This document shows, piece after piece, positions 35,561-39,415 of a DNA stretch of 64,000 nucleotides. Made by a program: the position numbers and the translations under genes. Origin of the DNA: Candidatus Dormiibacterota bacterium (GTDB lineage: Bacteria; Acidobacteriota; Polarisedimenticolia; Gp22-AA2); assembly GCA_035635555.1 (NCBI GenBank), contig DASQAT010000004.1, positions 1-64,000 on the forward strand, in the 5' to 3' direction. Below the pieces are notes generated by a model. That model was given only the letters and a program-made list of their open reading frames with translations. It made no database searches and was not told the origin of the DNA. Numbering within the stretch: position 1 is the stretch's first letter; the number at the start of each line of letters is the position of its first letter.

Positions 35561-35980
35561 ATGTCCGTCAACTCGAAGCGGATTCTGATCGGCGCGCTCG
35601 TCGGTGGCGTGGTGTGGAATGCCTGGAGCATGGTGGTGAAAGGGATCCTGCTCGCCAGCCGCTACGAGAAGGCGACCGCCGCGGGGTCGTTCCAGGCCAC
35701 CCCACGCCTGCCGTTCATGCCTCTCTGGATCGTCACGCTCTTCGTCCTCGCGTGGATCATCGCTTCGCTGTATGCCGCCGTGAGGGTGACCTGGGGCCCC
35801 GGCCCGGTGACCGCGCTCAAGCTCGGCGTCATGGCCGGTTTCGCCATCGGGGTTCCGGGCAATCTCGGGACCGCCTCCTGGGCGACCTTCGGCCGGATCT
35901 TCCCGTTCTGCTGGGCGCTGGACCTGGGAATCGGATCCGTGTTCGCAGCCCTCATCGCCGGCTGGCTGTATCGCGATTGA
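35561..35980 (+). CDS. Small integral membrane protein
   Basis: This is a 139-residue protein of unknown function with about four membrane segments: residues 8-28, 53-73, 85-105 and 110-136. Loops are short; Gly-rich helices (GALVGGVVWN, GVMAGFAIGVPGNLG) suggest tight packing. ATG 35561 has a GAGGAG ribosome-binding site five bases upstream. The last 29 bases overlap the convergent NDH-2 gene, so the two transcripts are antisense at their ends. No family recognised. Confidence 0.72.
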   Translation: MSVNSKRILIGALVGGVVWNAWSMVVKGILLASRYEKATAAGSFQATPRLPFMPLWIVTLFVLAWIIASLYAAVRVTWGPGPVTALKLGVMAGFAIGVPGNLGTASWATFGRIFPFCWALDLGIGSVFAALIAGWLYRD

Positions 35981-37238
35981 GGAGGGGGCCGGTCTCGCCG
36001 GTGATGAGGCGGGCGCCGCTCTCGTAGCGCACGTACAGCCACGTCCACTCCAGCATCACGACCAGCCGGTTGCGGAAGCCGATCAGGAAGGAGATGTGGA
36101 TCAGGAGCCAGGCCAGCCAGGCCACGAAGCCCGACAGGAGGATCCGGCCGAATTGCGCCACCGCCGCCGCCCGGCCGATGGTCGCCAGGGAGCCCTTGTC
36201 GCGGTAACGGAACGCTTCGAGCGGACGGCCGCCGAGCGCGCGCAGGATGTTGCGCGCCGCGTGACGCCCCATCTGGATGGCGGCGGGGGCCACTCCCGGG
36301 ACCGGTCGGCCGTCCTGCTGCAGCGACGCCAGGTCGCCGATCACGAAGACCTCGGGATGGCCCGGCAGCGTCAGGTCCGCCTTGACCGCGACGCGCCCGG
36401 CGCGATCGAGCGGAACGCCGAGCGATCGCGCGATCGGTGACGCGGCCACGCCCGCGGCCCACAGGACGTTGCGCGAATCGATCCGTCTCCCGCCGAGCGT
36501 CACGCCGGTCGCGTCGATCGCGGTGACGGGCGACCCCGTGACGACTTCCGAGCCGAGGCGCTCGAGGGCCCTCTTGGCCTTCTCCGACAGGCGCGCGTCG
36601 AACGTCCCCAGGATGCGCGGTCCCGCTTCGACCAGGACGACCCGGGCCGACCCCGGGTCGATGCTGCGGAAGTCCCGGCGCAGGATGTGCCGTCCGATCT
36701 CGGCCACGGCCCCGGCCATCTCCACGCCGGTCGGGCCGCCCCCGACCACGACGAAGGTCAGCCAGCCGCGGCGTCTTGCGGGGTCGGTCTCGCGCTCGGC
36801 TGCTTCGAAGGCGAGCAGGATCCGTCTGCGGATCGCGAGCGCGTCCTCGATCGTCTTCAGCCCCGGTGCGAACGGCGCCCAGTCGTCGTGCCCGAAGTAG
36901 GAGTGGGCCGCCCCGGTGGCCACGATCAGGAAGTCGTACGGCACCTCGCCGTCCGCCAGGAGAACCTTGCGCGCCTCGACGTCGATGGCGGTCGCTTCGC
37001 CGAGGATGACCGTGGCGTTCTTCTGGCGCCGCAGGATCCGCCGGATCGGCATGGCGATGTCGCTCGGGTTCAGCGCCGCCGTGGCGACCTGGTAGAGCAG
37101 CGGCTGGAACAGATGGTGGTTGCGGCGATCGACGACCGTCAGGCGCACCGGGGCGCGCCGGAGCGCCCGGGCGGCGTAGAGGCCGCCGAAGCCGCCGCCG
37201 AGGACGACGACGCGGGCGGGTGTCTCCGGGGCGGTCAT
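35952..37238 (-). CDS. ndh: Type II NADH:quinone oxidoreductase
   Basis: This is a 428-residue membrane-associated flavoprotein that transfers electrons from NADH to quinone without pumping protons. VVVLGGGFGGLYAARAL near residue 10 is the FAD loop; VVVGGGPTGVEMAGAVAEI near 165 is the NADH loop; FVIGDLASL near 300 contacts FAD; PAAIQMGRHAARNI lies in the quinone region. Two hydrophobic stretches near 360-405 form the membrane anchor. Complete length for the family. No complex I genes are in the window. Confidence 0.92.
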   Translation of the reverse strand: MTAPETPARVVVLGGGFGGLYAARALRRAPVRLTVVDRRNHHLFQPLLYQVATAALNPSDIAMPIRRILRRQKNATVILGEATAIDVEARKVLLADGEVPYDFLIVATGAAHSYFGHDDWAPFAPGLKTIEDALAIRRRILLAFEAAERETDPARRRGWLTFVVVGGGPTGVEMAGAVAEIGRHILRRDFRSIDPGSARVVLVEAGPRILGTFDARLSEKAKRALERLGSEVVTGSPVTAIDATGVTLGGRRIDSRNVLWAAGVAASPIARSLGVPLDRAGRVAVKADLTLPGHPEVFVIGDLASLQQDGRPVPGVAPAAIQMGRHAARNILRALGGRPLEAFRYRDKGSLATIGRAAAVAQFGRILLSGFVAWLAWLLIHISFLIGFRNRLVVMLEWTWLYVRYESGARLITGETGPLLNRDTASRR

Positions 37239-37306: not shown

Positions 37307-37663
37307 CTACTTGCTGAACACGAACTTGTTCGGCGATCCCTCCAGCACCGAACCCTTGCCCGGCCGCCAGAGGGCGTGCTTCTCGATCTCCTTCGCGAGT
37401 GCCAGGTCCCTCTCGGTGATGCCGCCCGAGGCGTGCGTCTTCAGCTTGACCCAGACCTTCCCCCAGGTGACCTCGAGGTCCGGATGGTGGTAGGCCGCCT
37501 CGCTGAGAAAGCCGATGGCGTTGACCAGCATCAGCGTGGTCGGCCAGCCGTCCGTGCTGTACTTGCGGCGCAGCCAGCCGTCCTCCAGCTTCCAGCCGGG
37601 AAGCTCCTTCTCCAGACGAATCGTGATCTCCTGGTCCGGGATGACCGGAAGCTTTTCAGGCAT
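37307..37663 (-). CDS. Pterin-4a-carbinolamine dehydratase-like protein
   Basis: This 118-residue protein has the PCD/DCoH core: AAYHHPDLEVTWGKVWVKL and THASGGITERDLALAKEIE, giving the conserved HHP and later His/Thr of the dehydratase site. A C-terminal tail of about 20 residues (GKGSVLEGSPNKF) is not part of the usual domain. It lies 21 bp downstream of the Fae-like gene, so the two are probably co-transcribed. No aromatic hydroxylase is adjacent, so classic phenylalanine hydroxylase recycling is not supported here; a link to a C1-carrying pterin is an inference from the neighbour. Confidence 0.88.
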   Translation of the reverse strand: MPEKLPVIPDQEITIRLEKELPGWKLEDGWLRRKYSTDGWPTTLMLVNAIGFLSEAAYHHPDLEVTWGKVWVKLKTHASGGITERDLALAKEIEKHALWRPGKGSVLEGSPNKFVFSK

Positions 37664-37684
37664 TCGACACCTCCCGTCGCCGAG

Positions 37685-38239
37685 CTAGTCGAGAATCCAC
37701 TTCTTCTTCTCGCGGTTGAAGTACATGTGGCGCGGCATCGAGCGATCTTCCTTGAGGAGGTCCTGCACGGAAGGCTTTCCCCGGAGCGCCTTCTGGATCG
37801 CCTCTTTCATGGCGGAGCGGTTGTTGCGGTAGAGCTCGTTGAAGTCGGCATCCTTCATGTCCGACAGGCGCGGGTCGACCCACACCAGGGAGATGATGCA
37901 CAGGCTCTCGGCCTTGTTCTTCGGGATGATTCCGGCCTCCACGGCGTCGAGCACGCCGTCGGCGATGCCGGCCTGGACGGGGCCGCCGTAGACCATCACG
38001 TCCGCCATCTTCTTCAGCTGCACCTTGGGCACCATGATGGTCGCCGGCTTCACCATCTTACCGCCGTCCACCAGGCAGAAGAAGCGCGAGAAGCCGGCGC
38101 TCTGTCCCATGATCGTCGCGAACGCCTGGCCGACCGGACCATCCATCTCGCCGATCACGATCTCCGGCTCGGTCCACAGCCAGTCCTGGCTGCCTTCCCC
38201 CATCGCCTCTCCGAAGCGGATCCTGATCCGATCAGGCAT
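37685..38239 (-). CDS. Formaldehyde-activating enzyme (Fae)-like protein
   Basis: This 184-residue protein matches Fae over most of its length: GEMDGPVGQAFA near residue 30, KPATIMVPKVQLKKM, GGPVQAGIADGVLDAVEAGIIPKNKAE and ISLVWVDP...DFNELYRNNRSAMKEAI. Fae condenses formaldehyde with tetrahydromethanopterin. However, the N-terminal GEA...VIG segment, where characterised Fae has a catalytic His (VAHID), reads SQDWLWTEPEIVIG with no His, and the C-terminal ~35 residues are unusual. It is therefore a divergent paralogue whose activity is doubtful. A GGAGGAAG ribosome-binding site precedes the ATG. Confidence 0.85.
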   Translation of the reverse strand: MPDRIRIRFGEAMGEGSQDWLWTEPEIVIGEMDGPVGQAFATIMGQSAGFSRFFCLVDGGKMVKPATIMVPKVQLKKMADVMVYGGPVQAGIADGVLDAVEAGIIPKNKAESLCIISLVWVDPRLSDMKDADFNELYRNNRSAMKEAIQKALRGKPSVQDLLKEDRSMPRHMYFNREKKKWILD

Positions 38240-38392
38240 GACTCTTCCTCCGTGTGGATCGTCCGAGAACGCGGCTCCCGTGGAAAAACGGCGCCGATCC
38301 TACCCCAGGCTGCGCGTCACTGTCACTCTCGGCGACCACGTCGCGAAACGCGGAACGCGCGCCGGGACGGACCGCGCGTATGATCGGCGTCC

Positions 38393-39415
38393 ATGGACCG
38401 TCGTCACGTCCGTCTCGGGTTCGCGGGGTTCGGGAACGTCGGCCGCGCCCTGGCGCGTCTCCTTCTGGAGCGGCGCGACGAGATCGGCAGGCGGCACCAT
38501 CTGACGTTCGAGACGACGCTCCTCGCGAGCGGCCGCCGCGGTGCTTGGGTCGAGCCCGGGGGGATCGATCTCGAAGCGGCGCTGCGCGACGGCTGGTCGT
38601 CGCCCGGCCGGCTGCCGGACGCGCTGCGCGATGCTCCCGTCGATCTTCTGTTCGAGACGACGCCTTTGGAGCCGAGGACCGGCGAGCCCGCCTTGTCGCA
38701 CGTGCGCACGGCGCTCGAACAGGGGATGTCGGTCGTCACGGCCAACAAGGGACCGGTCGCCCTGGCGGCGCGCGACCTCTTCGCGATCGCGCGGCGCACG
38801 GGCGCGGGGTTCCGCTTCGAGTCGGCCGTGGCGGATTGCCTGCCGGTGTTCAATCTGGTCGAGGCGGCGGTGCCGGTGGGACGGATCGTGCGCTGCCGGG
38901 GTGTTCTCAACTCGACCAGCAACCACGTGCTGCAGGCCGTGAGCCTGGGCCGGCCGGCCGACGATGCCGTCGCCGAGATGCGGCGTCTGGGTCTCGCCGA
39001 GGCCGATCCGTCGCACGATCTGGAGGGCTGGGACCAGGCCGTGAAGATCGTCATCCTGGCGAACGTCCTGATGGGTCGAAACCTGAAGCCGCCGGACGTC
39101 GAGCGCACCCCCCTGGCCTCGGTCGACCCGGCCTGGCTGCGCGGCGAGACCCGGGCCGGCCGGACGGTGCGACTGATCGCGGAGGCGGCGCTCGATGGAC
39201 CGGCGCGCGTGCGCGCGGAGGGGATGTCGCCGGGGGATTTTCTGGCGTCGCTCCCGGGCGTGTCTCTGGGCCTGACGCTCGACACCGAGCTGGCCGGGAC
39301 GATCAACGTGTCGATCGTGGAGCCGCACGTCGAGCAGACCGCCTACGGCATGCTGGCCGACCTGGTCGCCATCCGTCAGGGACGACGGCTCGTCCCGACG
39401 CCGCTTCTGTCCTAG
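38393..39415 (+). CDS. hom: Homoserine dehydrogenase
   Basis: This 340-residue monofunctional enzyme reduces aspartate semialdehyde to homoserine, the branch point to threonine and methionine. GFAGFGNVGRALARLL is the nucleotide loop; TANKGPVA, GVLNSTSNHVL and EADPSHDLEGWDQAVKIVILA are the expected substrate and catalytic blocks, with the Lys of D...K. No C-terminal ACT domain, so no direct threonine feedback. A TATGAT box lies 20 bp upstream of the ATG. It could supply homoserine to the sulfur-relay operon at 13-17 kb (inference). Homoserine kinase is not in the window. Confidence 0.88.
   Translation: MDRRHVRLGFAGFGNVGRALARLLLERRDEIGRRHHLTFETTLLASGRRGAWVEPGGIDLEAALRDGWSSPGRLPDALRDAPVDLLFETTPLEPRTGEPALSHVRTALEQGMSVVTANKGPVALAARDLFAIARRTGAGFRFESAVADCLPVFNLVEAAVPVGRIVRCRGVLNSTSNHVLQAVSLGRPADDAVAEMRRLGLAEADPSHDLEGWDQAVKIVILANVLMGRNLKPPDVERTPLASVDPAWLRGETRAGRTVRLIAEAALDGPARVRAEGMSPGDFLASLPGVSLGLTLDTELAGTINVSIVEPHVEQTAYGMLADLVAIRQGRRLVPTPLLS

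Follow-up and report, generated by a model that had tools for sequence, protein, structure and literature searches.

Tetrahydromethanopterin (H4MPT) is a tetrahydropterin, and the formaldehyde-activating enzyme Fae (EC 4.2.1.147, PF08714, TIGR03126) carries a His within a VAHID motif that we take, from published structure work, to be its catalytic residue. Homologues lacking this His are already known as Fae2 and Fae3 from excerpts of three papers (PMC5023235, PMC7356819 and PMC11748545), the last of which states that the functions of Fae groups 2–4 are unknown. According to the same excerpts, M. universalis keeps wild-type-like growth when fae2, fae3 or both are mutated (PMC5023235), an AM1 Δfae1 strain is not complemented by the fae3 gene from M. 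alcaliphilum (PMC11748545), and mutation of fae2 in M. aquaticum 22A leads to slower growth with methanol (PMC7356819). PCD-family proteins (PhhB, COG2154, PF01329) are established dehydratases of 4a-hydroxytetrahydropterins, as an excerpt of PMC9737128 has it. In Proteobacteria, an ‘archaeal-like’ H4MPT/methylofuran cluster holds orf22/mfnB, orf17, myfA, myfB, fhcABCD, mch and mtdB, with MfnB given as its Orf22 in an excerpt of PMC8141765. The word ‘dehydratase’ does not occur in the main text of the methylofuran paper, and in the literature searched we found no paper linking PCD to H4MPT; such a link may already be in print.

The window, by which we mean the whole 64,000-nucleotide stretch of DNA analysed, lies on contig C4 of the genome of a soil acidobacterium and encodes a Fae-like protein and a PCD-family protein, the second gene starting 21 bp downstream of the first with both on the minus strand (Table 1). 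The pair is flanked by genes for a homoserine dehydrogenase and an NDH2-like protein, and the main H4MPT cluster of the genome is elsewhere (C6). The Fae-like ORF belongs to Pfam Fae, with whole-length homology at 161.5 bits (cut-off 27), and the PCD ORF scores 84.8 bits against Pterin_4a (PF01329; cut-off 26). Across five same-genus genomes dN/dS is 0.05–0.12 for the Fae-like gene and 0.10–0.28 for the PCD gene, indicating purifying selection on both.

Table 1. Positions, within the window, of the Fae-like/PCD gene pair, its sequence features and its flanking genes.
Feature	Position	Strand	Basis
Fae-like protein, WTEPE clade, 184 aa	37685..38239	-	ORF, Pfam, NCBIfam, tree, alignment
PCD-family protein, H4MPT-linked PCD clade, 118 aa	37307..37663	-	ORF, Pfam, active-site motif
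E24 codon, aligned with the canonical catalytic His; then P25, E26	38168..38170	-	alignment
H171 codon, sole His of the Fae-like protein	37727..37729	-	sequence, alignment
GGGAGGTG, Shine-Dalgarno-like, PCD start, within the 21-bp gap	37668..37675	-	kept in same-genus genomes
GGAGGAA, Shine-Dalgarno-like, Fae-like gene	38245..38251	-	read from sequence
Homoserine dehydrogenase, divergent, upstream of pair	38393-39415	+	Pfam
NDH2-like oxidoreductase, downstream of pair	35952-37238	-	Pfam

We aligned 63 Fae-family sequences, 17 canonical and 46 His-less. The column of the VAHID His holds H in 17/17 canonical rows, E (30) or M (16) among the 46 others, and E in 9/9 rows of the clade to which the window protein belongs. 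By this alignment the catalytic His is absent from the Fae-like protein, as the first-pass annotation had proposed, with E24 in the VAHID column and no His at the catalytic position. The next two columns read P and then E in 46/46 His-less rows, so that HID has become [EM]-P-E in homologues from Acidobacteriota, Pseudomonadota and plasmids (EPE in the window protein). A further canonical stretch, F-I-H-W, has given way to W-x-x-P, with W and P each in 46/46 rows and the His retained in one of 46; the window protein has the form W-x-[DN]-P. Since both replacements are complete, and with the low dN/dS of the Fae-like gene alongside, the loss of the His is, on the alignment, an old and fixed replacement rather than decay. 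The remainder of the protein had been described as strongly conserved. This holds for the positions invariant in 63/63 rows (E11, G28, P64, K71, G85 and D97 in typed-reference numbering), all of which the Fae-like protein keeps, and fails for 19 more columns that are invariant across canonical Fae and altered in nearly all His-less proteins. The nearest solved structure is 1y5y/1y60 (E 1.4e-13); an AlphaFold model of the protein, built from 8 close sequences, has a mean pLDDT of 40.7.

The single His of the Fae-like protein, H171, was considered as a displaced catalytic residue and rejected, because the same C-terminal His is present in 63/63 aligned rows. What had been taken for a novel C-terminus proves to be a short and slightly longer tail, with 12–13 residues past the last His in the window type compared to 1–9 in canonical Fae and 0–12 in the other His-less proteins. 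The loss of the His also bears on annotation. TIGR03126 (one_C_fae) has its cut-off at 118.05 bits and gives the Fae-like protein 119.7, so that automatic annotation would label it simply Fae. That this equivalog admits a His-less protein by a margin of 1.7 bits is a risk for the annotation of formaldehyde metabolism, and databases probably hold mislabelled formaldehyde-activating enzymes.

In a maximum-likelihood tree, canonical Fae and the 46 His-less proteins fall on opposite sides of a 100/100 branch, and the Fae-like protein groups with the Fae2/Fae3 type. The suggestion that it is an undescribed kind of protein is not supported, given the published Fae2 and Fae3. Like the window protein, 16 AMPE and 21 AEPE rows lack the His. 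The AEPE clade (99/99) is, by inference, Fae3. One member of the AMPE group (64/85) is the sole Fae homologue that we found on the Methylobacterium aquaticum plasmid pMaq22A_1p, presumably the published fae2 (Maq22A_1p31155); on Azoarcus and Aquabacterium plasmids, AMPE genes directly follow fhc genes. The window protein differs in belonging to a separate W-[TA]-E-P-E clade (9 rows, 100/99), made up of eight proteins from Acidobacteriota (the window and seven other genomes) and one from a gammaproteobacterial MAG, and in that the window-type gene has a PCD gene 20–30 bp away in one family. A sister relation between the AEPE and WTEPE clades is unsure, since the tree program warns that the long branches of both meet there. 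Scans of viral contigs turned up no relative. Thus His-less Fae homologues are known, and the window clade and its operon with PCD appear to be new.

Elsewhere in the same genome, a profile search identified a canonical Fae on contig C6 (241 bits, VAHID present). Its gene has an Mpt_N (MtdB-type) dehydrogenase gene after it and a divergent 4HFCP_synth gene before it, and the same stretch carries ATP-grasp, HisA-like, GHMP kinase, CitG and RimK genes. Matches to Mch and FTR/FhcD are also present in the genome, as are methanofuran genes. C6 therefore carries a cluster similar to the ‘archaeal-like’ one, in which members of the PCD clade described below also occur, whereas the window pair lies on another contig. 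The search for the rest of the pathway, suggested in the first-pass annotation, thus recovered the pathway, as represented by the genes just named, together with a canonical Fae of its own. We rejected the idea that the Fae-like protein is the sole Fae of the genome; with the canonical Fae and pathway genes on C6, formaldehyde condensation has its own enzyme.

The window PCD matches the complete motif E-x3-HHP-x5-W-x9-H-x8-D, which we take to be the PCD active-site motif, and no second Pterin_4a match occurs in the genome. A profile search found no Biopterin_H (phenylalanine hydroxylase) in the genome, and a PCD serving phenylalanine hydroxylase was rejected for this reason: aromatic amino acid hydroxylation does not explain the sole PCD of a genome without the hydroxylase. 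Pterin_4a proteins are common, occurring in 273/396 Acidobacteriota genomes. In the PCD tree, a branch with 99/95 support divides the clade of the window PCD from 19 conventional PCDs, with three border sequences on the side of the clade. Clade members have a longer C-terminal tail (median 37 residues past the motif compared to 12). We then built a model from nine window-type PCDs, to which eight of the nine PCD-positive Acidobacteriota genomes contributed; the ninth (G022) did not. Among 369 Gammaproteobacteria, 47 genomes score 126–200 bits with this model and the next best 69; among 396 Acidobacteriota, nine score 196–234 bits, followed by 168, 117 and 112, with the remainder at or below 85.

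The clade PCD tracks Fae. In Gammaproteobacteria it is present in 40/49 genomes with Fae compared to 7/320 others (Fisher p 1.6e-37, kinship ignored); put the other way, 40/47 genomes with the clade PCD encode Fae, all 40 scoring at least 162 bits for the PCD, and the seven Fae-less ones have the seven lowest scores. In Acidobacteriota, at 195 bits or more, it is present in 9/16 genomes with Fae and 0/380 others (1/380 at 168 bits), and three genomes without detected Fae, G318 included, carry a clade PCD at lower score. Its absence from 9/49 gammaproteobacterial and 7/16 acidobacterial Fae genomes means that it is not indispensable. Gammaproteobacterial genomes with a His-less Fae have it in 25/29 cases and those with canonical Fae only in 15/20, a division of the 29 and 20 genomes made by score, the sequences behind it being one His-less place per genome for the 29, plus L142, and one canonical place (L087). 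The clade PCD is thus not clearly tied preferentially to His-less Fae in Gammaproteobacteria. Its tracking of the pathway in canonical-only genomes argues that it belongs to the whole pathway instead of being reserved for the Fae-like protein. In two methanogen genomes used as controls, both with Fae and Mch, no Pterin_4a match was found, which would fit a role in aerobes better than an essential step of cofactor synthesis and would favour the processing of cofactor damaged by oxygen. As for the Fae-less genome G318, its clade-bordering PCD (168 bits; L139:1911-5473) has cupin and FAA-hydrolase genes nearby, reminiscent of gentisate-type ring cleavage.

We also inspected the genes surrounding clade PCDs. 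Some gene calls followed a home-made rule, and the evidence used here is limited to genes named by Pfam or by record annotation. The order DUF6513 – DUF447 – 4HFCP_synth (MfnB) – PCD is found in 3/6 gammaproteobacterial stretches (L057, L145 and L146). In the other three (L142–L144), selected for having an AEPE-type Fae no more than 6 kb from the PCD, no H4MPT synthesis genes were seen by eye beside the PCD. In G398 the order is PCD – PabB-like – ATP-grasp – hydantoinase-like, on a contig that also carries canonical fae, FolB, DUF447 and DUF6513 genes, and in G397 the PCD is beside DUF6513 and divergent from 4HFCP_synth. In G022, which did not contribute to the model, canonical fae is followed 1.6 kb later by PCD – DUF6513 – Mpt_N dehydrogenase. 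On plasmids of Azospirillum argentinense and Phyllobacterium zundukense, the annotated order PCD – fhcBADC adjoins genes for ribofuranosylaminobenzene-phosphate synthase, methylene-H4MPT dehydrogenase, mch and fae. H4MPT/methanofuran operons of three bacterial groups therefore contain clade PCDs (L053, L055, L057, L138, L145, L146, L147 and L149). In L142–L144 and on a Thiodictyon plasmid (L148) the PCD is outside any recognised H4MPT operon, and the same holds for the window, its Fae-like gene aside. The Thiodictyon PCD is also about 8 kb from a TIR-domain gene (L148:8986-18348).

Within the family of the window's genome (8 genomes, its own included), six carry both genes side by side and two carry neither; one of these two is only 63% complete. 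The genes are 20–21 bp apart in the five same-genus genomes, and the other genus has a 30-bp gap. The survey for recurrence that the first-pass annotation had called for thus finds the pair maintained in its own family, and adjacency in 6/6 family genomes with either gene favours a shared function there. In two further Acidobacteriota, G119 and G223, both genes are present and non-adjacent, in G223 about 5 kb apart within one H4MPT-type cluster. A general Fae–PCD two-gene module was rejected, as in Gammaproteobacteria a His-less Fae lies within 6 kb of a clade PCD only in G400, G558 and G762.

The first-pass annotation had suggested a pterin-related role, and the clade, co-occurrence and operons of the partner PCD point to one tied to H4MPT; the pterin repair that it proposed would be plausible. 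We give about an even chance to the reading in which the pair is an operon servicing H4MPT, in a bacterium with the H4MPT/methanofuran pathway of formaldehyde oxidation, with the PCD as a 4a-hydroxy-H4MPT dehydratase and the Fae-like protein as an accessory binder. Reduced H4MPT would react with oxygen to give 4a-hydroxy-H4MPT, which the PCD probably dehydrates, leaving a quinonoid dihydro form for recycling by a reductase. The Fae-like protein probably binds H4MPT or its C1 adduct without being the formaldehyde condenser, a step that the separate canonical Fae would perform, and could act in binding, C1 hand-over or hydrolysis. The operon of the window's family would in this way join two H4MPT-linked accessory genes. 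A bolder version, which we hold only tentatively and think rather improbable, makes the clade PCD a dedicated H4MPT repair enzyme of aerobes and the His-less Fae its partner, holding oxidised or C1-loaded H4MPT. Here the Fae-like protein may form or hold a carbinolamine that the PCD dehydrates, the addition and removal of water being split between two proteins.

Three other explanations were weighed against the servicing of H4MPT. The Fae-like protein may still be formaldehyde-activating, with E24 or E26 replacing the His and perhaps with another C1 donor or at low formaldehyde. Its score just over the TIGR03126 cut-off, its retained GPxQ-type and other invariant positions, and the slower growth on methanol of the M. 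aquaticum 22A fae2 mutant (excerpt of PMC7356819; presumably an AMPE protein) speak for this, and the mutant suggests that some His-less Fae may carry C1 flux. We nevertheless consider it unlikely for the window protein, given that F-I-H-W is lost along with the His, that the genome already has a canonical Fae and that, in the excerpts of PMC11748545 and PMC5023235, fae3 of M. alcaliphilum does not rescue AM1 Δfae1 and the M. universalis fae2 and fae3 mutants, single and double, grow like the wild type. Of similarly low probability is a role of the Fae-like protein in shuttling C1 units between tetrahydrofolate and H4MPT or in releasing them, or else in sensing formaldehyde or C1 pterins, with the PCD a mere pathway neighbour. 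Such roles are proposed in excerpts of PMC5023235 and PMC11748545, and both the lack of a clear PCD preference for His-less genomes in Gammaproteobacteria and the position of an AEPE-clade gene on a Methylobacterium plasmid are consistent with them. There, on pLVM1 of Methylobacterium sp. DM1 (L041:3403-8549), the His-less Fae gene follows genes for a glutamine amidotransferase, GlxC, a glutamate synthase-like protein and a type III glutamate-ammonia ligase, a set resembling the N-methylglutamate (methylamine) pathway type. A mere neighbour is harder to reconcile with two genes that stay together, 20–30 bp apart, in every family genome that has either.

Finally, the window PCD could be an ordinary one, serving tetrahydrobiopterin or molybdopterin side metabolism and next to a drifting Fae paralogue only by coincidence. 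Its complete motif, the frequency of PCD-family proteins in Acidobacteriota and the molybdenum-cofactor role of PCDs reported in an excerpt of PMC3223725 would all be in keeping with this. We regard it as very unlikely, since the genome lacks Biopterin_H, the clade of the window PCD is distinct from conventional PCDs and tracks Fae, and purifying selection acts on both genes.

A conserved operon with PCD, together with a PCD clade that tracks the H4MPT pathway in three bacterial groups, makes a concrete and cheap functional test possible. The servicing of H4MPT by the PCD could account for the way in which aerobes maintain a usable methanogen-type cofactor despite its sensitivity to oxygen and, if the partner version were true, the orphan Fae2/Fae3 proteins would gain a function.

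Some neighbours of His-less fae genes outside the window's family may be recorded here. The gammaproteobacterial member of the window clade lies between aminotransferase class III and arginase-family genes (L038:2896-9766), with ETF, aldehyde dehydrogenase and DAO-type oxidoreductase genes close by, possibly an amine degradation cluster. On a Thiodictyon plasmid (L039:8001-16531), about 7 kb that include recombinase genes separate a His-less fae from an antiviral gene of the viperin family. At four loci a globin gene adjoins AEPE-clade (Fae3-like) genes (L142:12560-13884, L143:9432-10578, L144:11028-12152 and L041:8001-9041). In the three Gammaproteobacteria the globin is of bacterial type and divergent from the AEPE gene (Bac_globin 117–120 bits), and on the Methylobacterium plasmid (L041) an annotated globin lies downstream of it.
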